Assembly: GCA_024279255.1 (NCBI GenBank) | Contig: JAJRRT010000107.1 | Coordinates: 62,001-126,000, forward strand | DNA from: Deltaproteobacteria bacterium | GTDB lineage: Bacteria; Desulfobacterota; Desulfuromonadia; Desulfuromonadales; Geopsychrobacteraceae | Length of the DNA: 64,000 nt | Direction of reading: 5' to 3' | Shown: positions 52,140 to 64,000 of the stretch, one piece after another | How positions within the stretch are numbered: the first letter of the stretch is position 1 | Layout of the letters: every line of letters begins with the position of its first letter | Notes under the pieces: generated by a model | What the model saw: only the letters and a program-made list of their open reading frames with translations | What the model was told of the DNA's origin: nothing | Database searches by the model: none | Made by a program: the position numbers and the translations under genes

Positions 52140-52991
52140 ATGCAAATCGGATGGTATCCGGGCCACATGAAGAAGGCCCGCGAGTTGATCGAAGATCTGG
52201 TCAAAAACATCGACTTGGTCGTCGAAATACTTGACGCACGTCTGCCTCTGAGCAGCGCAAACCCTGTACTTCAGGAGTTACGCAGTCGCCGACCGTTCAT
52301 TCGTGTTCTGAACAAGGAAGATCTGGCTGACCCCGCCACGACCAAGGCCTGGAAGAGTTATTTTGAGTTGGAAGAGGGGGTCAAAGCCCTACCGCTGTCG
52401 GCTAAGAACCACTCCGCGGGTGCCAGCTTGCAGAAGCTTTGCCGCCGCATGGTCCCTAAACGCTGCAAGCCGGGACGGCCATTACGGGTGATGATCGTTG
52501 GCATCCCAAATGTCGGCAAATCGACCATGATCAACACTCTGGCGGGCAAGAAGATGGCGCGGGTTGGTGACAAACCAGCGATCACCACCTGTCACCAGCA
52601 GATCGACCTCCGCAACGGCATATTGCTCTCTGATACACCGGGATTGCTCTGGCCGCACCTGGAAGATCAACAGGCAGCACGGCGGCTGGCGACCAGTGGC
52701 GCAATCAGTGAGAACGCCTATGATCAAGGAGAGGTTGCTCTCTTCGCCCTGAGTTGGTTGGTTGAAACCTACCCGCAGCGGCTGAAAGAGCGCTACAAGC
52801 TTGAAGAGGTGAGCGGAGAAACAGCCGACCTTCTCGCAAAGATAGGCAGTAAACGTGGCTGCCTGATCGCCGGTGGCGAAATCGATATTCGCCGCGCTTC
52901 CGATCTGCTGCTCCAAGACCTGCGGGGTGGAAAATTGGGCCGTGTCAGTTTTGAAGCGCCGCCAGAAACCCCGGCCGCGTCAGAGACCTGA
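52140..52991 (+). CDS. ylqF: Ribosome biogenesis GTPase YlqF
   Basis: A 283-residue protein from ATG 52140 (GGAG upstream); the track form starts 60 codons earlier inside the rhodanese gene. It starts MQIGWYPGHMKKARELI, typical of YlqF/RbgA. The GTPase motifs are in circularly permuted order: NKEDLAD (G4), then GIPNVGKSTMINTL (G1) and DTPGLLWP (G3). It acts in late assembly of the 50S subunit. Confidence 0.95.
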   Translation: MQIGWYPGHMKKARELIEDLVKNIDLVVEILDARLPLSSANPVLQELRSRRPFIRVLNKEDLADPATTKAWKSYFELEEGVKALPLSAKNHSAGASLQKLCRRMVPKRCKPGRPLRVMIVGIPNVGKSTMINTLAGKKMARVGDKPAITTCHQQIDLRNGILLSDTPGLLWPHLEDQQAARRLATSGAISENAYDQGEVALFALSWLVETYPQRLKERYKLEEVSGETADLLAKIGSKRGCLIAGGEIDIRRASDLLLQDLRGGKLGRVSFEAPPETPAASET

Positions 52992-52997
52992 TAGAGA

Positions 52998-53819
52998 TCA
53001 AGCCCCTGTCACCCAGCGACACTTCGGTCCGACCACCATCAAACTATTCGGCAGAGCACTCTGGACCTTCTCCATGGTGCTACCGAAAAGAGCCTCACGG
53101 AGCGTTCCCTTGCCATATGCACCAAGCATCACCAAGCCATCGTGCGGCAAGCTATAGAGCTGCTGCGTAATATCCCCCTCGTTCCAAAAATGCCAGTCGA
53201 ACCCCTCAATTTGTTGTTGGGCAAAACCCTGCTTCAGTAACCGAGACACTAACTCCTCCCTATCCCCCTGACTGAAAATTTGAAGCGGTGCATTACTCAA
53301 CTGCTGGATCTTAAGTGCCAGACGTAGTGCTCCCGCAGCGCTGTCTGAACCACCGTAAAGGACTGACAGACGAGTCCAGGGTTTGAATACCGGTGCCGGG
53401 ATATAGATCGGAAAAGGCGCAGCCTGAACAATCCGCCTGACTTTCGAACCAATATGACCCAGTGCAATTTTTCGGGTATCGTCACTCATCGAGCGTGGAC
53501 AGGTCATCACTGAAAAATGGATGGGAAGGTCGGGCAGGTCACTGGCACTTTTGCCCTTAGGTTCCACCAGCCTGTACTCAATCTGGTGAATTGCGAGGAT
53601 TTCACGCACATGTCCCTGTGCAGAGGTCGGGTCACTCAGATAACTGGTATCAAGATCAACCTGCACAACATCAGGATCAAAATAGAAAAGAAAGCGCTTG
53701 AATTCCGGCAGGTAAATTGACAGCGACAATTTCAAACGTCGGCACAGATAGGCTGACTGCAATAAAGTTTCGCGGCCAAAAGGGGTATTTCGAAAAACAT
53801 GTAGAACGGGCTTATTCAT
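52998..53819 (-). CDS. Universal-stress-protein-like protein
   Basis: A 273-residue protein from ATG 53819 (GGAGG upstream); the track start adds an unsupported 28 residues. It opens KPVLHVFRNTPFGRETLLQSAYLCRRL, has a second half beginning LSVLYGGSDSAAGALRLALKI, and ends MLGAYGKGTLREALFGSTMEKVQSALPNSLMVVG, the USP ATP-loop-like GxxGxG/S motif. Two USP-fold halves are likely, the first degenerate. It converges with ylqF. Confidence 0.75.
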   Translation of the reverse strand: MNKPVLHVFRNTPFGRETLLQSAYLCRRLKLSLSIYLPEFKRFLFYFDPDVVQVDLDTSYLSDPTSAQGHVREILAIHQIEYRLVEPKGKSASDLPDLPIHFSVMTCPRSMSDDTRKIALGHIGSKVRRIVQAAPFPIYIPAPVFKPWTRLSVLYGGSDSAAGALRLALKIQQLSNAPLQIFSQGDREELVSRLLKQGFAQQQIEGFDWHFWNEGDITQQLYSLPHDGLVMLGAYGKGTLREALFGSTMEKVQSALPNSLMVVGPKCRWVTGA

Positions 53820-53909
53820 AGAACCTCCAATTCGCGTGAAACACATCATAGCGCTGTGATAGTAGTTATAGCAATCAACACAATTACATATAGAGGTTGA
53901 CAAAAAAAC

Positions 53910-53931
53910 CTACAACTGCAGGATAACTGCA
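53910..53931 (+). promoter_or_regulatory. Direct repeat AACTGCAG upstream of the sensor kinase
   Basis: AACTGCAG-GAT-AACTGCAG, an 11-base-spaced direct repeat whose units contain the palindrome CTGCAG, lies 35 bases before the kinase start. A TTGACA box lies just upstream (53897-53902). Possibly an operator. Confidence 0.4.
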
Positions 53932-53963
53932 GATATTATATTCAAGCCGTAACGGAATTTTTC

Positions 53964-55412
53964 ATGCGCTTAACTATCCGCATCACCGCCGCTGTGACCC
54001 TCGGGATTATCCTGATCTTCTCGCTCTACAGTTATCTGTCGATCCAGCGCGAGCGGGAGCAGCTAAAAAAAAATCTCAGCCGCGAAGCACGAAACCTCGG
54101 TCAATCATTACTCTTTGTTGTAACAGACCTTTGGGAGACCCGTGGTGAAGATATTGCGATCAGCTTTCTTCGGCGTCGCAACCTGCTTAGCCCCAACTTG
54201 CAAGCACGCTGGGTCTGGATCGATGCTGAAATTGGCACCCCCTTCCGACCTCTGGTTCCCCAATCGGAACTTTCTGACCTGTCGAACGGTAAGGGCCTCT
54301 CACTTCTTGTTTCATCGGATGACGGACACGACTTTCTGCTGACCTATATACCAACAAAAAATATTAAAGGGCGTCTCGGCGGGATTGAAGTACGCGAATC
54401 GATGGATGAACTGCACGGCTATGTAAAGGAGAGTTTACGCCGCTCGGCAATGGTCGTCGCTGCAGCTGTTGTCTCAGCCCTGTTACTGATGACATTACTT
54501 GGCAGTATCTGGATCAACCGCCCGGTCCGCCGCCTGCGTGAACAGGCCGAAAGGATCGGCACCGGAGATTTTTCAGCATCGTTGGATATTAGCGGCCGTG
54601 ACGAACTCGGCAAGCTAGCTGTCTCCATCGAACAGATGCGCGGCCAGTTGGCAGCGGCCAAAGAGGCCGACGACGAAGCAACCCGCGAAAAGATTAAGAC
54701 TCTGGAAAAGCTACGCCACACCGAACGCCTCGCCACTTTGGGCCAATTGTCCGCTGGCATGGCCCACGAACTCGGGACCCCGCTCAATGTCATATCCGGG
54801 CGAGCCAAGTTGATTGCCAGCGAAGAGCTCAGCCAGCAGGAAGCGACACATTCTGCAAGAATCATTGGTGAGCAAGCCGAGCGGATGATTCACATCATGC
54901 GCCAGCTTCTTGATTACGCACGGCGTGGTGATATCAGTAAGCAGTCGGTGGTGGTTTCCGACCTTCTTTCCAACGTCGTCGAGATGCTGTATCCGATCAC
55001 GAATAAGCAACGGATCGAGATCGAACTGAATCTGCCGACGGAATCATATCAAGTTAAAGCCGATCTCAGCCAGCTACAACAGGTCCTCCTCAATTTGGCG
55101 ATGAACGGAATTCAGGCGATGGGTCGTGGCGGGAAGCTACGGCTTGACCTTGACCTTGATCCCGAGGATGAAAATCAACTCCGAATCAGCATTACTGATG
55201 ATGGCAAAGGTATCGCTGCAGACGACCTTCCACATATTTTTGATCCCTTCTTCACCACCAAGGAGGTCGGCCAGGGAACAGGCCTCGGACTTTCCATCGC
55301 TCAAGGCATTGTCAGCGAACATGGCGGCAAGATCGAGATCGACAGCAGCCCCGGGAAAGGGAGTTGCTTTCGCCTGAGCTTTCCATTGGATTCAGGAGAA
55401 GATGATGCCTGA
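53964..55412 (+). CDS. Membrane sensor histidine kinase
   Basis: A 482-residue protein. Two membrane spans (about residues 5-25 and 160-182) enclose a periplasmic domain of about 130 residues without a recognised fold. A HAMP domain follows, then [15 protein letters not shown] (phospho-His), [11 protein letters not shown] (N), ITDDGKGIA (G1), FDPFFTTK (F) and [10 protein letters not shown] (G2). It resembles ZraS/NtrB-type kinases. It overlaps the sigma-54 activator gene by eleven bases and is surely its kinase. Confidence 0.94.
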
Positions 55413-56748
55413 TGATCGCGCCAGAGTCCTGATCATTGAAGACGATCAGGCCTTTCTCGAGCTGCTTGATGAGACCCTGACCCGCCGCGGATATAAGATT
55501 GACGGTGTCACCAGCACTGTCGCCGCCGATCATCATATGCGGACAATCGATTATGATCTGGTGCTGACCGACATCAACATGCCGGGGGAGAGTGGTACCG
55601 ACTTTTGCGCTCGGCTCAAACAAACGCGGCCTGACCTGCCGGTGTTAGTGATGACTGCGTTCGGGAGCCTGGAGACTGCCATCACCGCTTTACGGGCCGG
55701 GGCCTATGACTTCATAACCAAACCTGTCGACCTCGACCTGCTCTCAATAGCCCTGGAACGTGCATTGCAGCACCGCCGCCTCACTCGCCAAGTGCGCCTC
55801 CTTGAGGAACAGATCAAAAAGTCAGATAACCAGCAAGAACTAATCGGCAACAGCCCTTCTATCATAAAATTACGCGAACAGATCAGTCGTCTTGCCCCTG
55901 TCGACACCTCAGTACTGATCAGTGGCGAAAGTGGGACCGGCAAAGAATTGGTCGCACGCGCACTACACCGTATGAGCAATCGTAAGGGCCGCTTTATTGC
56001 GATCAACTGCGCTGCACTGCCAGAATCCCTTTTAGAGAGTGAACTCTTCGGCCACGAGAAGGGAACCTTCACCGATGCGCACACAAAGCGCCGGGGACTC
56101 TTTGTTGAGGCCCATGGAGGAACTCTTTTCCTCGATGAAGTTGCTGAACTGCCACTTGCCCTGCAACCGAAACTACTCCGCGTTCTTGAGGAACGACGAG
56201 TGAGACCTTTGGGCAGCAGTCTGGAGATCGACTGCGACGTCAGGATCCTGGCCGCCAGTCACCGTAACCTGCAAGAGGCTGTTTCAGCCGGGGATTTCCG
56301 TGACGACCTCTTCTACCGCCTCAACGTCATCGAACTACATTTGCCGCTATTGTCGCAACGCGGCAATGATATTCTACTCCTGGCCAACCGCTTTATCGCC
56401 GAACTGGCCCCGCGCTTCAATAAAAAGGTCGAAGGTCTGGCCGCTCCTGCAGCAGAACGCCTGCTGACTTGGCCATGGCCGGGAAATGTGCGTGAACTAC
56501 GCAACGTCATTGAGCGGGCACTGGCACTCTGTCGCCATAACCTGATAACGATTGAAGACCTGCCTGAGAGCCTGCAGCACCAGAAACCCCCGCAGATTTC
56601 CCCGGCCAGTAACGCTGAGATGTCACTGGCGGAATTGGAAAAATCCTACATCTCACAAGTCCTAAAGCAGGTTGATGGCAACCGTAGCCTGGCCGCCAAA
56701 ATTCTGGGCATCGACCGTAAGACCCTGTATCGTAAACTCACCCTCTGA
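55402..56748 (+). CDS. Sigma-54-dependent response regulator (NtrC/ZraR-like)
   Basis: A 448-residue protein. Receiver domain: VLIIEDDQAF, LVLTDINMPG (phospho-Asp), ITKPVDLDLL. AAA domain: ISGESGTGKELVARALH (Walker A), GTLFLDEVAELPL (Walker B). The sigma-54 contact loop, usually GAFTGA, reads GTFTDA. The Fis-type HTH is SLAAKILGIDRKTLYRKL. It ends 5 bases before twin palindromes and a -24/-12 element that serve the next genes. Confidence 0.95.
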   Translation: MMPDDRARVLIIEDDQAFLELLDETLTRRGYKIDGVTSTVAADHHMRTIDYDLVLTDINMPGESGTDFCARLKQTRPDLPVLVMTAFGSLETAITALRAGAYDFITKPVDLDLLSIALERALQHRRLTRQVRLLEEQIKKSDNQQELIGNSPSIIKLREQISRLAPVDTSVLISGESGTGKELVARALHRMSNRKGRFIAINCAALPESLLESELFGHEKGTFTDAHTKRRGLFVEAHGGTLFLDEVAELPLALQPKLLRVLEERRVRPLGSSLEIDCDVRILAASHRNLQEAVSAGDFRDDLFYRLNVIELHLPLLSQRGNDILLLANRFIAELAPRFNKKVEGLAAPAAERLLTWPWPGNVRELRNVIERALALCRHNLITIEDLPESLQHQKPPQISPASNAEMSLAELEKSYISQVLKQVDGNRSLAAKILGIDRKTLYRKLTL

Positions 56749-56752
56749 TTTC

Positions 56753-56785
56753 GGGGCATTATGCCCCGGTGGGGCATAATGCCCC
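56753..56785. promoter_or_regulatory. Twin palindromes GGGGCATTATGCCCC and GGGGCATAATGCCCC
   Basis: Two perfect 15-base palindromes whose starts are 18 bases apart and which differ only at the central base. They begin five bases after the stop of the sigma-54 activator gene and end about 40 bases upstream of a -24/-12 element. This is the classic layout for activator binding. They could also fold as one long hairpin in RNA. Confidence 0.8.
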
Positions 56786-56827
56786 GAAGCGACATTCCGT
56801 AACTCCCTGATTCTAAACAGATTAGCT

Positions 56828-56844
56828 TCGGCATACTTCCTGCG
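56828..56844 (+). promoter_or_regulatory. Sigma-54-like -24/-12 promoter
   Basis: TCGGCATACTTCCTGCG has GG and GC exactly ten bases apart, as sigma-54 needs. Match to TTGGCAC-N4-TTGC is otherwise partial. The ATG of the receiver-only gene is 55 bases downstream. Confidence 0.6.
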
Positions 56845-56898
56845 ATAGATACTGGTCCTACAAACCAGCAACCGTATCTACTTGCAAGGAGTTTTAGC

Positions 56899-57324
56899 GT
56901 GACTCATCTGACAACCGACAACCAACGACCGCCCTGCGTCCTGATCGCCGAAGATGATCAGGCTCTGCGCGAACTCCTCTCCTTTGCTATGAATCGTGCA
57001 GGTTTTTCAGTCGCCTGCTGCAACAATGGCAAACGACTCCTCGAGATCCTCGAAAGCGGCATTGATGACGCATCGACTGCGGTCGATATTGTGATCACTG
57101 ATCTGCGCATGCCAGCGTTAAGCGGCCTTGAAGTTCTTGAAGCTCTTTTTGATCGCCCGGAACGCCCACCCGTCATCTGCATGACGGCCTTTGGCGATGC
57201 AAAAACCCACCAGGCCGCAATCCGCTTCGGCGCAACCCACCCCATAGACAAGCCCTTCGACATCGATGAGATGATCGATCTTGTCCGTGCGGTCTACAAC
57301 TACAAAAATAGCCACAAGGAGTAA
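56899..57324 (+). CDS. Receiver-only response regulator
   Basis: A 141-residue protein. VLIAEDDQALRELL, VDIVITDLRMPALSG (phospho-Asp), ICMTAFGDA and PIDKPFDIDEM (Lys) form a complete receiver. No output domain follows. It is seven bases upstream of a DegP-type protease gene, an unusual pairing. It may tune the phosphorelay of the adjacent kinase as a phosphate sink, or bind a partner protein. Confidence 0.92.
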   Translation: MTHLTTDNQRPPCVLIAEDDQALRELLSFAMNRAGFSVACCNNGKRLLEILESGIDDASTAVDIVITDLRMPALSGLEVLEALFDRPERPPVICMTAFGDAKTHQAAIRFGATHPIDKPFDIDEMIDLVRAVYNYKNSHKE

Positions 57325-57331
57325 CCACCAA

Positions 57332-58780
57332 ATGAAAACATTACAAATCAGATTATTCATGTTTTTACTGCTCGCAATCACCGCAACCAGTCTGTTACTG
57401 CCCGTTCCTGTACTCGCCCAAAAGGCCGGCCTTGAAAGCCTGCGTCAAACCGGCTTGGCGTTTCGTGAAGTTGCCAAGAAGGTCTCACCGGCGGTGGTTT
57501 TTATCAAAGTTGAAAAAATGGCGGACCCTTTGGCTGGACAGAATCCTCTCAACTCCCCCTTCGGTGACGAATTCTTCCGCCGCTTCTTTGGTCAGCCTCC
57601 TCAACACCCGGGACAACAAAAACAACCGCCAAAACAACGCTCGATGGGTCAGGGAAGCGGATTCATCCTCTCGCCTGACGGTTATATCATGACCAATAAC
57701 CATGTTGTCAGTGGAGCAGACCAGGTCACTGTCACTCTGCTCGATGGCCGCGAATATAAAGCTGAGATCGTTGGCACGGATCCACCCAGCGATGTTGCAA
57801 TCATCAAGATTGATGAGACTGATCTCCCTTTCCTGCGCCTCAGTGATTCCGACAAGCTGGAAGTTGGCGATTGGGTCCTGGCTTTCGGCAACCCTTTCGG
57901 TCTCTCACACACCCTGACCGCTGGAATCGTCAGCGCAAAAGGACGCAGCGGGATGGGGTTGAACGAATATGAAAACTTCATTCAGACCGACGCCGCGATT
58001 AATCCCGGGAACTCTGGTGGACCACTGATCGACCTCGACGGTCACGTGGTGGGTATGAACACCGCAATCTTCAGCCGTAGTGGCGGCTACATGGGGATCG
58101 GCTTCGCTATTCCGATCAATATGGCGCAACGAATTCGTGAGCAACTCGTAGAGACTGGCAGCGTTACCCGTGGCCGGCTTGGCGTTTATATTCAGGATTT
58201 AACTCCTGACCTCGCTGAATCCTTTGACCTCGACAACATCGAAGGAATTCTGGTGACTCAGGTCATGGAAGATTCAGCGGCAGCCAAAGCCGGTCTCAAA
58301 CAAGGGGACCTGGTTCTCGAAATGGACGGTAAGAAAGTCGGCAAGGTTGCTGAATTCCGCAATAAGGTCTCCTTCACCCCACCTGGAACCAAAGTCAAAC
58401 TGCTGATTCAGCGTAACGGCAAGGAGCGAACCCTGGTTGCCAAAATAGGCAAACAAGAAACCGACGACAAAGGTCAACCGACAGAAAGCAGCAAACTGTC
58501 GAAACTTGGGTTGAGCCTGCAAGAGCTCACTAAGGACCTGTCTGAAAAATTCGAATATCAGGGTCAAACCGGCGTATTGGTTACTGAAGTAGAACCGGGG
58601 TCAGCAGCCGAACGAGCTGGAATCAAACGCGGAGACCTGATTCAGGAAGTCAATCGCGCAGAAGTTAAAACTCCAGCTGATGTACGCAAGGCGATTGAAG
58701 AAAACAAGCGCAATTCTCTGTTGCTGTTAGTTCGTCAAGGTGAATCAACGCGTTATCTGGCGATTAAACTCGACAAATAG
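57332..58780 (+). CDS. degP: Do-type periplasmic serine protease (DegP/HtrA)
   Basis: A 482-residue protein from ATG 57332 (AAGGAG upstream). A signal peptide ends near VLAQ. The triad is in MTNNHVVSGAD (His), PSDVAIIKID (Asp) and NPGNSGGPLID (Ser). Two PDZ domains follow (GRLGVYIQDL and LGLSLQELTKDL regions). The flexible loop PPQHPGQQKQPPKQRS (LA loop) is present. It degrades or refolds damaged envelope proteins. It is co-transcribed with the receiver gene behind the sigma-54 element. Confidence 0.95.
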   Translation: MKTLQIRLFMFLLLAITATSLLLPVPVLAQKAGLESLRQTGLAFREVAKKVSPAVVFIKVEKMADPLAGQNPLNSPFGDEFFRRFFGQPPQHPGQQKQPPKQRSMGQGSGFILSPDGYIMTNNHVVSGADQVTVTLLDGREYKAEIVGTDPPSDVAIIKIDETDLPFLRLSDSDKLEVGDWVLAFGNPFGLSHTLTAGIVSAKGRSGMGLNEYENFIQTDAAINPGNSGGPLIDLDGHVVGMNTAIFSRSGGYMGIGFAIPINMAQRIREQLVETGSVTRGRLGVYIQDLTPDLAESFDLDNIEGILVTQVMEDSAAAKAGLKQGDLVLEMDGKKVGKVAEFRNKVSFTPPGTKVKLLIQRNGKERTLVAKIGKQETDDKGQPTESSKLSKLGLSLQELTKDLSEKFEYQGQTGVLVTEVEPGSAAERAGIKRGDLIQEVNRAEVKTPADVRKAIEENKRNSLLLLVRQGESTRYLAIKLDK

Positions 58781-58800
58781 CCCGTAGACTCATCATAGAG

Positions 58801-58871
58801 GAAATTCACACACCAAGCCAAATGCCTTCCTGATTTATCCAGGAAGGCATTTGGCTTGGTGTGTGAATTTC
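58801..58871. terminator. 31-bp perfect inverted repeat after degP
   Basis: Two 31-base arms, beginning GAAATTCACACACCAAGCC and returning to end GGTGTGTGAATTTC, pair without mismatch around a nine-base loop. It starts 20 bases after the degP stop. It can terminate transcription, but the stem is much longer than usual and the T-run is short. Confidence 0.9.
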
Positions 58872-59006
58872 ATGTCGCCAAAGTTGTAAATCCGAAATAG
58901 AGCAGTACAATTCTTCTACAATCTAATCAAAAATCCACATCCATATATAAGTCACACCCCGTTCGCTCTTAAATAGCTTCATCACCCCGCTCTAGAGGAG
59001 ATAAAA

Positions 59007-59507
59007 ATGCTACGAAATCGGATCATTGTTGTTGTGAGTCTAATGTGCCTTGTCCTGACAGCTGGGATAGGTTCCGCTCTGGCTGGCGGCATGTCACCAC
59101 CGGCAGCAGATGGCAAAGCGGTCTATGATTACATCACTAAGGCCAATCCCTATCAGCAATGGGCACTCTTCCCTGGCAAAGGGAAGTTCTACAAGGGGGC
59201 CCACCCCCATGGTGCGCTGCTGACCACCTATGTTTCAGATGGTGCACTCAAAGCACTCAACAACAAATCGGGCAGCTACCCGAATAACTCCTTTATCGTC
59301 AAAGAGAATTACTCTCCTGACAAAAAACTGGGTGCGGTCACCGTCATGTACCGGGTCAAGGGCTACAATGCCGATGCTGGTGATTGGTTCTGGGCCAAAT
59401 ATGCCGCGAGTGGCAAAATTCTGAAAGAGGGCAAAGTGGGCGGCTGCATCAACTGTCACACTGCTGTCATCATGGATGACTGGGTATTCACCGGCTCGGT
59501 CAAGTAA
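59007..59507 (+). CDS. Cytochrome P460-family secreted protein
   Basis: A 166-residue protein. A signal peptide ends near SALA. The domain reads DYITKANPYQQWALFPGKGKFYKGAHPHGALLTTYV, then KENYSPDKKLGAVTVMYRVKGY, WFWAKYAASGKILKEGK and the heme motif GCINCHTA. In P460 enzymes the c-heme is crosslinked through a Lys to the protein and oxidises hydroxylamine; many relatives lack this, and their role is unknown. A GAGGAG site precedes ATG. A terminator follows at 59524. Confidence 0.92.
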   Translation: MLRNRIIVVVSLMCLVLTAGIGSALAGGMSPPAADGKAVYDYITKANPYQQWALFPGKGKFYKGAHPHGALLTTYVSDGALKALNNKSGSYPNNSFIVKENYSPDKKLGAVTVMYRVKGYNADAGDWFWAKYAASGKILKEGKVGGCINCHTAVIMDDWVFTGSVK

Positions 59508-59523
59508 GCGATACAACCCACAG

Positions 59524-59558
59524 GCGGAAGAGTCAGTCGACTCTTCCGCTCCTTTTTT
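59524..59558 (+). terminator. Rho-independent terminator
   Basis: Arms GCGGAAGAGTC and GACTCTTCCGC, loop AGTC, followed by TCCTTTTTT. It ends the cytochrome P460 gene. Confidence 0.93.
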
Positions 59559-59681
59559 AATCCTGCCCTTTGACAGATAGACGACAAAACAGGTTATGAT
59601 TTGGGTGCCACCATTTCCCCTGTAAGTACCCATGTCACTCAATCCGTTCCCCCTAGAGATCATTTTCATTTTTTCAACATA

Positions 59682-59717
59682 GTGTCCGTTGACACCATTA
59701 TGATTTGCACATACATT
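59682..59717 (+). promoter_or_regulatory. Promoter of the exported three-gene cassette
   Basis: TTGACA (59689-59694) and TACATT (59712-59717) are 17 bases apart, giving a leader of about 30 bases. The -35 box lies inside GTGTC-CGTT-GACAC, a small inverted repeat that could be an operator. Confidence 0.6.
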
Positions 59718-59755
59718 GTGTTGGATTAAGCGTCTATAACGCAAGAGGGCTAGTT

Positions 59756-60388
59756 ATGCTGAAGTTCGGGTTGTTCTGTCTGTTTCTAAGTATCACCGTC
59801 TTTATCAGCCCATGTTTTGCGGTTGATGATTATTTTCCTGATGAAAAAATTCTTGTTGATAAATGTGCTCAAAATTTCTCTTCCAGTTGTGCAAAGAAGT
59901 TAGCGAAAGTGCGCTTCAATCACGCTAGAGAGCTTTTTATCTATCTTCAGAAAACTAACAATATGGATTCTTTTGAGCTTCCTCTGGCATATGCCGAATC
60001 CGCTGTCGAGCTCGACACTAAAAACAGCCTGTACTGGTCTTTACTGGGCGAGTTTTACACCTTGATACCTCACACAGAGTTTCAAGTCATGGCAGAGGGG
60101 GCTTTCCTTAAGGCGATCAAGTTCGATAAGTCCAATAACGCCGCCCGTCTTCTTCTTGCGGATCTGATGTTCAATGAAGGTCGCTTCTCTGTCTCCACGC
60201 AACTCATTCTCGATGCATTCGATCGAGATAAAAAACTATTAACCCATGAACTTGTAGAAATACTTTCTCTGGCATACCTGCTGGATAACAATGTGAAAAA
60301 CGGACTTGAGGTGCTTAGGCAGCTCGACAAGCAGTACGATCAACCTTTTATCGAGGCCTTCATTGCTGTCTTTGAGGAGGCCATCTAA
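59756..60388 (+). CDS. Secreted TPR-like protein, 210 residues
   Basis: From ATG 59756 (GAGGG upstream); the track form is 17 residues longer. A signal peptide ends near CFA. The mature N-terminus has two cysteines (DKCAQNFSSSCAKKL), perhaps a disulfide. Then helical pairs follow: LPLAYAESAVELDTKNSLYWSLLGEFYTL, MAEGAFLKAIKFDKSNNAARLLLADLMFNEGRF, VEILSLAYLLDNNVKNGLEVLRQLDKQY, at TPR-like 34-residue spacing. Protein-protein contact in the periplasm is the likely role. Its stop overlaps the start of the giant gene by one base (TAATG). Confidence 0.82.
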   Translation: MLKFGLFCLFLSITVFISPCFAVDDYFPDEKILVDKCAQNFSSSCAKKLAKVRFNHARELFIYLQKTNNMDSFELPLAYAESAVELDTKNSLYWSLLGEFYTLIPHTEFQVMAEGAFLKAIKFDKSNNAARLLLADLMFNEGRFSVSTQLILDAFDRDKKLLTHELVEILSLAYLLDNNVKNGLEVLRQLDKQYDQPFIEAFIAVFEEAI

Positions 60389-63300
60389 TGCGTTATCTCA
60401 TTCCTTTTCTGATCTTGCTTGCTATGGCCAACGCTGCTGTTGCCGCGGACGAACTGTCGTTTACGCAGCGGGCTCAATTTGAACAAAAACATTACAATGA
60501 AGTTCAAGCTGGTCGGAAAAAGGCCAGGAATACCTGGAATAAAACTATTGCAAATCTCCCTCCTGCGACTTTCGACGGAAGAGGGAAATTAAGACGCGAC
60601 GATCCTGCCGTTATTCGTGCCACTGAAGTCTATAACAAAAAAATGGCCGAAGTCGGGCGTCAGGCAAAAGCTAATTACGATGCGGAGATCGGTGCCGTTA
60701 TCGCAAATTCGAACTCCGGGGTTGGTGCCCTTCGCGCTGAAAAAGCCCGCTTGCAGGTAGAAGCCTTTAAAAAGTATGAAGCAATGTTGCCTCGTCGGGC
60801 GGATGGAACCACCAATAAACGAAGCCCCGAATATAAAAAACTGAAAGCTGAGCTGGATAAAGAATGGACTCGGATTGATTCTGATATGAATGCGAAAGAT
60901 GCTCGCCGTCGTCAGATGATCAAAAACAATTTCAACACAACAGGTGGTGATGGCTCTTACAAGGTTGTCGGTGATCTGCCTGAGCATCTTAAAAGTGATG
61001 CCGACATGACAATCTCTGACCCCAAAAAGTTCAAGAAGAAAATAGCTGCGCTAACGAACAGTAATCAGCAGACAGGATGGACTTCTTATAGTGACCGGAA
61101 CGTTGACCATCTGAATGATCTCACTGCCTGGAAGGACACCTCTGAAGGCTCCAAAGGAAAACGTACCGGGAGCAGTAGTAATGACGCAGAGATAGCCTTT
61201 GGAGCGCAACAGGGGAGCGATAGCTTTCCTTCCACCGATGGTAAGAGATACGCGGCTGGAGCCAGGAAATACAATAAGCTCAATGCCTTCAATTCAAACC
61301 TCGTAAAGTTAACCCACAGTGTAGGGGACACTCGGATAGGCTCCGTGTCGTATCAAGACCCGAAAGATGTCGATTTCAAGACTTTTGCAAAGAGTACCGT
61401 TAAGGGGGCAGGAATAGCGGGTGTCGGTGTTGACAAAACTCTCGGCGAACAACTCACAAAGCTGCAAAAGGGCAAAATTATCGAAGAGTCGTTGGATCTC
61501 TTTGGGGATAGCCCCGCTCAAAAAGACGCGAAGGTCAAAGAATTTCTCCAAAGGAGTACAAAAGTTGCGAGAAAAAGCTATAAAAAGGTTAAAAATGCCA
61601 ACACGGAAGAACTGAAAAAACTCACAAAAAATGTCGAGATATTAAAACGCAACAACGTCGCTCCAGAGCGGATTGCTCGGGCTGAAAAATTACTATTAAA
61701 GAATAAGTCACTTGCCATCGAAAATAGAGGAATTTATGGCGAACTCGTGACCATTAACCCCGAACTTGTCGGCAGCGTTATTTCTGACGAGGGAAAGATT
61801 GTACGTAAAACCAATGGTGAGTTTGTCGACACCAGGAATGGTCGGCTTTTATCCTCCAGTGAAGTTCGGGAGCGATATCTGGTGGATGTCAATGCTGATG
61901 CCATTGATGCAAGTTCTTTTGTCGGCTCGGGGAAGGAAAGCCTGTTTTCTAAATCAAAAAGCCAGCTTAACGCTATCCGGTCCTCGAAGACGTTCAAAGC
62001 CGTTAGTGGCAGTTATAACGTTATTGAGCTGGGTGTTTCTGCAGTCAAGGGGGCGCAAAGGGCCGTAGGAGAAGAAAAGGACGGAGACAGTGATCTGAAA
62101 ACCTTCTCTAAAGCATTGTACTACGCGTCCCCCGTGGCCGGAATTAATGATTTAACCAAGGCCAGCGTATTTACGGGTCTGACTAATTACCAGAACGAAC
62201 TGGCACTCTCAAACTCACCGAACGACACAACAACTCAGGCGCTGCTCTTAGGTAAGCACGCGACTATTGAATTTTTCGGCGCAGCAGGCACTTTGGCCAA
62301 AGAAAGTCTTATAGGGTTTATTGATACCGGCAAGAGTCTCGGTTCTTTTGCGGAGTGGTCAACGAGGAGCACGACCGAAGAAAATAGCTTCGACAATAAG
62401 GACTCCATGGAAAGAAAGTTGATCTCGTATCGGGCCAAATATCTGAAAGGTCTCTATGCCAAAGCCAAGGCTCTTCGGTCTGACGACATAGAAGGCCTGA
62501 ATACTCTCAATGGGGCTGTTGCTGCTACCATCAAACAATGGAAAAGCAAAACAAACGCCCATGATGTCCTTGCCCGGGCCAAAAAACTTCAAAGTATTCT
62601 TTTAGAGGCTGTACCTGCTCCAGCCCCAGCCCCTGAGGTAACAAAGCCCAGAATAGTCGAGAATAATGCTGCTGACCCCGTCGATTTAAAACCCACACCA
62701 GATACCGAAACCAACCCCTTTGGCGGTGATGCCCCAAGCGGTGAAGACAATCCTTTTGGTGACATCTCCAAAGAGTTATTCGCCGATGTTGACCAGAACG
62801 AAGTCTATCGTCTTAAACAGCAACAGGCAGAGAGCAAAAATAGAATCCTCCAGTCCCAGCGCTCAAACATCTACTCGAAAGTATCGGAAATCAATCAAGC
62901 TCATATACGAAGATCAGCAGCAATTTCTGCGGCAGCTCAGTCGATGCAGCAGTCTCTCGTGACGGCGCAAATACAACTCAATAATACCCGAGCGCAGGAA
63001 CGTGTTCAGGACCTTCAAAACCAGCAGATCATCAATCAGAACCGGGAAAACATTGCTGCAATGACCCGCAACAATAACAATTCACCGTACACACAGTCTT
63101 CGACGAATGGTTATCCTGTGACCGATCCCTACGCGCAACGTTTCCAGGAACAGCAGGCACAAGTTCGAGTAAGTCAACAGCAGCAGTTTGTCGAGCCATC
63201 CCAATCCGTTTCCCGCCATCAGCCGAACGAAGGCTTTTCGCCATCGCCGTTTGAGGAACCACCGGCGTATCAAGCAGAAGAAAAACAGGAAAGGCTTTGG

Positions 63301-63612
63301 GCAATAATTGCGTATCTTCATCCTGCGGGACAGAGAGGGGATAACTATACCAACGCCTCTTGTTATGTAATTTCATCTGACCTGCGCCCCCTTGATAAGG
63401 TTGGCTATTACAAACCGTCAGGAAGAGAAGGTGTGACGCAGTTCTACATGGGTTACACCTATGCCAGGCCGGTGGCAGATAAAGAATACTGCCAACAGAG
63501 AATTAATGGCAAAAACCATCGCGATCTTTTCAAACTACACACTTCGCGTACCGAACATGGCTACGGGTTTCCCGGCCCGCACACCAAAGAGGACCTTATC
63601 TTGATGCATTAA
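60388..63612 (+). CDS. Giant exported coiled-coil protein, 1074 residues, family unknown
   Basis: A signal peptide ends near AVAA. The first 230 residues are charged and helical (FEQKHYNEVQAGRKKARN, EKARLQVEAFKKYEAML). Residues about 330-470 hold a long Lys-rich helix (KVARKSYKKVKNANTEEL). The central part (about 540-680) has small-residue helices such as YNVIELGVSAVKGAQRAVGE. Then comes a Pro/Ala and NPFG-repeat linker (NPFGGDAP, NPFGDI), a Gln-rich coiled coil (about 800-920), and a compact C-terminal domain with two cysteines (NASCYVISSD, KEYCQQRI). I do not recognise the family. It is translationally coupled to the TPR-like gene and followed by a lipoprotein gene. Confidence 0.85.
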   Translation: MRYLIPFLILLAMANAAVAADELSFTQRAQFEQKHYNEVQAGRKKARNTWNKTIANLPPATFDGRGKLRRDDPAVIRATEVYNKKMAEVGRQAKANYDAEIGAVIANSNSGVGALRAEKARLQVEAFKKYEAMLPRRADGTTNKRSPEYKKLKAELDKEWTRIDSDMNAKDARRRQMIKNNFNTTGGDGSYKVVGDLPEHLKSDADMTISDPKKFKKKIAALTNSNQQTGWTSYSDRNVDHLNDLTAWKDTSEGSKGKRTGSSSNDAEIAFGAQQGSDSFPSTDGKRYAAGARKYNKLNAFNSNLVKLTHSVGDTRIGSVSYQDPKDVDFKTFAKSTVKGAGIAGVGVDKTLGEQLTKLQKGKIIEESLDLFGDSPAQKDAKVKEFLQRSTKVARKSYKKVKNANTEELKKLTKNVEILKRNNVAPERIARAEKLLLKNKSLAIENRGIYGELVTINPELVGSVISDEGKIVRKTNGEFVDTRNGRLLSSSEVRERYLVDVNADAIDASSFVGSGKESLFSKSKSQLNAIRSSKTFKAVSGSYNVIELGVSAVKGAQRAVGEEKDGDSDLKTFSKALYYASPVAGINDLTKASVFTGLTNYQNELALSNSPNDTTTQALLLGKHATIEFFGAAGTLAKESLIGFIDTGKSLGSFAEWSTRSTTEENSFDNKDSMERKLISYRAKYLKGLYAKAKALRSDDIEGLNTLNGAVAATIKQWKSKTNAHDVLARAKKLQSILLEAVPAPAPAPEVTKPRIVENNAADPVDLKPTPDTETNPFGGDAPSGEDNPFGDISKELFADVDQNEVYRLKQQQAESKNRILQSQRSNIYSKVSEINQAHIRRSAAISAAAQSMQQSLVTAQIQLNNTRAQERVQDLQNQQIINQNRENIAAMTRNNNNSPYTQSSTNGYPVTDPYAQRFQEQQAQVRVSQQQQFVEPSQSVSRHQPNEGFSPSPFEEPPAYQAEEKQERLWAIIAYLHPAGQRGDNYTNASCYVISSDLRPLDKVGYYKPSGREGVTQFYMGYTYARPVADKEYCQQRINGKNHRDLFKLHTSRTEHGYGFPGPHTKEDLILMH

Positions 63613-63655
63613 TTATTTTCAAAATAGTATTCAATCACCTCAAAAGGAGAAATTA

Positions 63656-64000
63656 GTGAAATCTACAATTGTTCTGTTGTTAATCGCACTCGGTACGCTT
63701 GTTCTTTCGGGCTGCCTTCCCGCAAACCCTAAAGCCTTTGGTATAGGCAACGGGCCGAGCATGATGTATCAGCCAGCGTTCGGTCAAAGGCTACAGCAAA
63801 AATACCCTCTAAAAGTCGGGATCATGGTTGCACGGGACACTCGGCCATACGATTTTTACGACGAAGAAGATGATTTTTTTAAAGAATCGATTCCTGAGGG
63901 ATTCTCTCGAATGATGTTTCAGGAATTTAAAAATAGTGGACTGTTTGCTGAAACAGTCTTCATAAACGAACCTGCTCCAAAGGTTCTCGATGCAAAAGCG
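63656..64000 (+). CDS. Lipoprotein, C-terminus cut by window edge
   Basis: Not in the ORF track. It starts with GTG 63656, with AAGGAG six bases upstream. MKSTIVLLLIALGTLVLSGC is a lipoprotein signal with lipobox LSGC. The next residues are PANPKAFGIGNGPSMM, and then LKVGIMVARDTRPYDFYDEEDDFF and GFSRMMFQEFKNSGLFAETVF, which resembles outer-membrane lipoproteins with a GNA1162/LpoB-like alpha-beta fold. Asp follows Cys+1 in inner-membrane retention; here Cys+1 is Leu, so outer-membrane sorting is likely. It is the third gene of the exported cassette. Confidence 0.85.
   Translation, partial: MKSTIVLLLIALGTLVLSGCLPANPKAFGIGNGPSMMYQPAFGQRLQQKYPLKVGIMVARDTRPYDFYDEEDDFFKESIPEGFSRMMFQEFKNSGLFAETVFINEPAPKVLDAKA

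Follow-up and report, generated by a model that had tools for sequence, protein, structure and literature searches.

An exported TPR protein paired with a giant exported protein: a recurrent, predicted envelope module on an accessory island of a Geopsychrobacteraceae bacterium

The window, a 64,000-nucleotide stretch (contig positions 62001-126000) of the genome of a Deltaproteobacteria bacterium of the family Geopsychrobacteraceae, ends within a cassette of genes for exported proteins (Table 1). The first two genes, ORF1 and ORF2, are joined at the junction ...CCATCTAATGCG, where the TAA stop of ORF1 overlaps the ATG start of ORF2 (TAATG). Each of the four proteins ORF1 to ORF4 has an N-terminal signal or a lipobox, which in ORF3 reads LSGC, and none possesses another strong hydrophobic segment. 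The initial annotation had described a cassette of three adjacent exported genes; these genes, their TAATG junction and their export signals are all real, but beyond position 64000 the third gene is followed by a fourth one, ORF4, and then by a terminator-like hairpin.

Table 1. Features of the cassette and its surroundings, and carriers of the C-terminal tail in related modules. Positions are those of the window, continued beyond 64000 where needed; positions with a prefix (L002, L036 and so on) refer to loci.
Feature	Position	Strand	Description
ORF1	59756..60388	+	210-aa exported TPR protein
ORF2	60388..63612	+	1074-aa giant exported protein
ORF3, lipoprotein	63656..64000 in window, on to 64327	+	223 aa, GTG start
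ORF4, lipoprotein	64334-64960, outside window		208 aa, after ORF3
Accessory island	59508-67069 (59508..64000 in window)		7562 bp, 46.1% G+C, relative to G007
Island ORF	65286-65954 (L002:6287-6955)		222-aa membrane protein, CxxC pair, several membrane segments
Island ORF	66050-66463 (L002:7051-7464)	opposite	137-aa exported protein
Cytochrome P460 gene	59007-59507		upstream of the cassette
Terminator-like hairpin	59523..59550	+	behind the cytochrome P460 gene; 12-pair stem, then CCTTTTTTAA
Inverted repeat	59682..59695		GTGTC-CGTT-GACAC over the -35 box, possible operator
Promoter-like site	59689..59717	+	TTGACA-17 nt-TACATT, sigma-70-like, 10/12 matches
Terminator-like hairpin	64979-65022		after ORF4; perfect 16-bp stem
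Tail [GP]xVL[DE]-COOH	L036:10948-12693; L037:7670-9412; L039:1168-1878; L039:1944-4364; L041:4911-8033 (GPVVLD); L042:5770-8022; L042:8019-8813; L082:6642-8918; L134:8879-11134		carriers in related modules

ORF1 alone gives a weak match to the Pfam family TPR_17 (E 0.012). However, one of its homologues matches TPR_19 at an E-value of 1.6e-11, and a search of the ORF1-family profile against structures retrieved designed TPR proteins at E-values down to 4e-33. The TPR-like character first suggested for ORF1 is thus firm at the level of sequence once the homologues are included.

The giant ORF2 consists of a signal peptide, a basic and mainly helical N-terminal half, a Pro/NPFG linker, a Gln-rich segment and a C-terminal domain with two cysteines. 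The proline-rich stretch extends over residues ~700-800 and the motif NPFG occurs twice, at 776 and 788, whereas glutamine accounts for 15-18% of residues 801-1000; the only two cysteines are Cys992 and Cys1035. The linker, the Gln-rich segment and the cysteine pair noted by the initial annotation could all be located in this way. Profile searches of Pfam and NCBIfam returned no curated family for ORF2, and the sequence contains neither the CxxCH motifs of an extracellular multihaem cytochrome nor an RTX motif (GGxGxD) or an LPXTG motif. An AlphaFold model of the C-terminal domain built from four sequences is poor (pLDDT 43), and in this poorly modeled region no toxin domain was matched in Pfam, NCBIfam or PADLOC. 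Comparison with the C-terminal domains of the related giants at loci L042 and L041 gave p-values of about 0.013 and 0.02, a likeness that is only suggestive because these comparisons were picked after looking.

A pattern scan of 84,980 genomes yielded no relative of ORF2, and searches of plasmids yielded none of ORF2, ORF3 or ORF4. Weak matches to residues 540-642 in several genomes looked like a family, but the one inspected (L005, G055) fell on tsaB beside rseP, and these matches were therefore taken as chance. That ORF2 is directly homologous to the Ig-type giants described below was likewise rejected, as both pairwise and profile scores lay within those of shuffled sequences.

For ORF3, family assignment by Pfam, NCBIfam and structure-library matching gave nothing; there was no match above cut-off in Pfam or NCBIfam, including to the CsgG-family lipoproteins of curli-type secretion, and a match to GFP at E 0.007 was taken as chance. 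ORF4 matches DUF4352 at E 8.8e-4 with 20 bits, which is below the gathering cut-off of 25.9. It is homologous to lipoproteins of G250 (z 18) and more weakly to those of G386 and G190 (E about 5e-4), and thus belongs to a broader group of lipoproteins that occur away from giants. The ORF4 homologue of G250 lies in a lipoprotein cluster (L013:8230-10239) with no giant nearby, where it adjoins an ORF3-like lipoprotein; the latter was rejected as a homologue of ORF3, as its z of 3.6 was exceeded by shuffles.

The cassette had also been assigned a promoter of its own, with an inverted repeat at the -35 box. Both elements are present, and the promoter-like site scores best of the seven sigma-70-like sites in the region; since about seven are expected by chance, however, it is only a candidate. 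Farther upstream, a very long near-perfect hairpin with arms of about 32 bp (GAAATTCACACACCAAGCCAAATGCCTTCCTG) sits at 58799-58871 behind the gene for an HtrA-like protease, and G007 harbors a related, oppositely oriented copy at the corresponding position.

The whole cassette lies in an accessory island. The genome G007 of the same genus is colinear with the window genome at 92.3% over 52177-59507 and at 89.0% over 67070-74329, but has only about 67 bp where the 7562-bp island stands. The flanks of the island have G+C contents of 52.4% and 49.7%, and the cassette itself has 46.3%, compared to a mean of 53.5% (s.d. 3.0) for the 36 upstream ORFs of at least 200 aa, only one of which is lower. 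Searches of eight other genomes of the genus and of the sample of relatives did not find ORF2, ORF3 or ORF4, apart from one chance hit. The AT-richness pointed out earlier as a hint of transfer is borne out by this clean island, and acquisition is the simpler reading compared to loss elsewhere. Searching the 39 kb downstream gave no tRNA, and no obvious repeats flank the island, the two remaining ORFs of which, of 222 and 137 aa, have no Pfam match.

Searching ORF1 through the class and a sample of the phylum, and then through the order of G319, which added G674, G663 and G667, revealed at least ten other genomes of the phylum in which an ORF1-homologous TPR gene overlaps or abuts the start of a giant exported gene. 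In the broad search, nine of these TPR genes had E-values of 1.9e-19 (G674), 1.1e-17 (G319), 1.1e-15 (G091), 3.6e-15 (G016), 1.6e-10 (G663), 6.1e-10 (G667), 1.6e-8 (G334), 8.7e-8 (G025) and 1.8e-5 (G649); the tenth genome carries locus L041, where a TPR gene precedes a giant in the same arrangement. By sequence, loci L042 and L133 (G663) represent one contig. In every pair, 30 nt or fewer separate the TPR stop from the giant start. The top matches of ORF1 outside its own genome all adjoin giants, and its best match without one (G228) has an E-value of 2.9e-5; the link to G649 consequently rests on gene order and homology of the giants. Ordinary TPR proteins are numerous among the matches when an alignment of the ORF1 family serves as query, with E-values up to 1e-11, so the pairing is judged from the single-sequence ranking.

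The pair of G674 is homologous to that of the window in both proteins. ORF1 and its TPR protein share 33% identity over 177 aa (E 8e-22), and ORF2 residues 128-605 align to its giant at 24% over 501 aa (composition-adjusted E 3e-12); the Smith-Waterman score is 218, compared to at most 91 in shuffles (z 18.2). The window thus carries an exported TPR-giant pair homologous to another such pair. The giants of G674 and G319 are 61% identical over their length, and the remaining giants fall into one or two further groups that are homologous among themselves but not detectably to ORF2. At the sequence level, both proteins support grouping G674 with the window as one gene pair; for most members this grouping depends on the TPR protein and the order of the genes. 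With counterparts of the pair in ten other genomes, the cassette is not an orphan.

In the giants of the relatives, the N-terminal half is helical and a hydrophobic helical segment is present, as are Ig-like repeats and a Pro linker; the C-terminus varies, and in G091 it is an ankyrin domain. ORF2 is shorter, has its Gln-rich segment where the repeats stand, and lacks both detectable homology to the L042/G649 core and the Ig-like repeats, which together define an Ig-repeat subtype. An AlphaFold model of the L042 core from five sequences (pLDDT 67) presents helices followed by beta-sandwiches, and in the PDB it most closely matches Ig-like or cupredoxin-like sandwiches, with E-values of about 1e-3. 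A reading of the motif GTDSDY...NDVDFM in these giants as a nucleotidyltransferase signature was abandoned, as the PDB matches of the core model were only Ig-like sandwiches. The exported companions encoded in related modules display Ig-like, PKD-like, LamG, Lcl_C, PDZ, ankyrin, Sel1 and MORN/WG domains, and these modules do not share ORF3 and ORF4 with the cassette.

The closest modules, those of G674 and G319, resemble the cassette in that an exported TPR gene overlaps the gene for an exported giant of 1170-1180 aa; they differ in the PKD or Ig-like repeats and the Cys-containing C-terminus of the giant, and in lacking ORF3 and ORF4. The modules of Geobacter sp. UBA6802 (G649), UBA5756, HGW-Deltaproteobacteria-15, Desulfuromonadaceae BB27 and others agree with it in gene order, export signals and TPR homology, as well as in a helical N-terminal half with an Asp motif and a hydrophobic helical segment. 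By contrast, their giants are not detectably homologous to ORF2 and contain Ig-like repeats, and their companions end in GxVL[DE]. Large Ig-repeat adhesins are exported giants with a spacer and repeat organization, which the giants of the relatives share; ORF2 has neither RTX motif nor repeats, and the cassette has no transporter genes. Moreover, some related giants are followed by lipoproteins with a DUF1566/Lcl_C domain, which is also part of the C-terminal domain of Legionella Lcl, a secreted, surface-located GAG-binding protein (PMC11162425), but this domain is absent from the window and unrelated to ORF1-ORF4.

The cassette therefore belongs to a real, recurrent and unannotated module, predicted to act in the envelope: a fast-diverging two-gene unit that is unnamed in the curated libraries searched and whose pairs are now defined across the phylum. 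In those libraries no secretion, pilus or polysaccharide system was matched, in agreement with the initial annotation, and a search of open-licence papers found no description of such a TPR-giant module. The novelty lies in the gene family and the module; the biochemical function may be familiar in kind, for example that of an adhesin or a scaffold.

A cell-surface or periplasm-spanning machine, as the initial annotation suggested, would be possible. The conservation of the pair, its signals for export and the domains of related modules (Ig, LamG, Lcl and PDZ) point to the envelope, as far as sequence can indicate. We propose, at roughly even odds (a probability of about 0.5), that the four cassette genes form an accessory operon around a conserved TPR-giant core. 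ORF1 would be a dedicated periplasmic partner of the giant, either adaptor or chaperone. ORF2 would build an extended scaffold or surface structure bound to the envelope and made up of helical, linker and C-terminal parts. The lipoproteins ORF3 and ORF4 would anchor or cap it; they are predicted to reside in the outer membrane because no Asp follows the lipid-bearing Cys. Counted against this scaffold are the lack of any enzyme or known-system match, the poor C-terminal model, the absence of ORF3 and ORF4 from the other modules, the membership of ORF4 in a lipoprotein group that also occurs away from giants, and the absence from ORF2 of Ig repeats and of detectable homology to most giants. Part of the same evidence suits a secreted adhesin or extracellular-matrix protein, for which the TPR protein and the lipoproteins would provide export and anchoring, and variable C-termini would bind different surfaces. 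Such a role would account for the Ig-like and PKD-like repeats in the relatives' giants, the LamG and Lcl_C domains of their neighbors, the Pro- and Gln-rich spacers and the sporadic, island-borne distribution; we consider it possible though on the unlikely side, as the cassette contains no type I, RTX, two-partner, type IX or curli genes, no ABC exporter adjoins ORF2 in the island, and ORF2 itself has no RTX motif, LPXTG motif or Ig repeats.

The variable C-termini behind better conserved upstream parts, the accessory island and the lipoproteins directly downstream would also fit a polymorphic effector or toxin, with an N-terminal half for delivery, a toxic C-terminus and lipoproteins for immunity or anchoring. 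We judge this quite improbable: there is no toxin, protease or PADLOC match, the lipoproteins are not conserved with the giants, and the C-terminal variation consists largely of ankyrin repeats or Cys-containing domains with no enzymatic match. Furthermore, the modules keep an exported TPR partner throughout, an arrangement that is not known to be usual in polymorphic toxins. That an orphan giant and a generic TPR gene were merely brought together in the island by chance might be suspected from the lack of a curated family for ORF2 and of a true homologue among the relatives and plasmids searched, but this is largely refuted, and very improbable, given the recurrence of the pair in ten other genomes and the homology of both proteins in G674.

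Related modules share a further feature at the C-termini of their companions. Among 223 ORFs in the loci examined, eight end in VL[DE] preceded by G or P, and all eight are exported companions in TPR-giant modules; a ninth was found in G667. This count is descriptive, since the motif was noticed before counting. The carriers are unrelated in their domains, comprising LamG-PDZ, beta-propeller-PDZ, MORN/WG, Sel1 and Lcl_C proteins. In whole genomes the corresponding DNA pattern showed no excess over a reversed-pattern control, and two of its three matches in G649 and one of two in G656 fall inside modules; the tail thus looks like a module-internal tag rather than a genome-wide sorting signal. 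The window and the island contain no GxVL[DE] tail, and their genome has 5 pattern matches versus 10 in controls. Since the G649 module has tails but no PDZ proteins, while the TPR protein is present in all modules, one may speculate that the TPR protein reads the tails. By analogy with PEX5 and Hop, whose TPR domains recognize C-terminal tails, the TPR-giant pair would then be the core of a new envelope assembly system in which GxVL[DE]-COOH serves as docking tail on companions of the Ig-repeat subtype, and the cassette of the window would be a tail-less, lipoprotein-anchored variant. We hold this extended scheme to be rather unlikely; if the tails were true docking signals, they would define a new route of exported-complex assembly in Gram-negative bacteria.

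Two additional giants were observed in the loci examined. A 1551-aa giant (L083:8183-12838) is akin to the module core (E 1e-28 to L041) and has TPR-like repeats of its own; no separate TPR gene precedes it. In G319, a second exported giant of 1576 aa (L081:11408-16138) stands directly behind the first one; the two have PKD/Ig-like repeats in common, and the second carries a GDIDFS motif.
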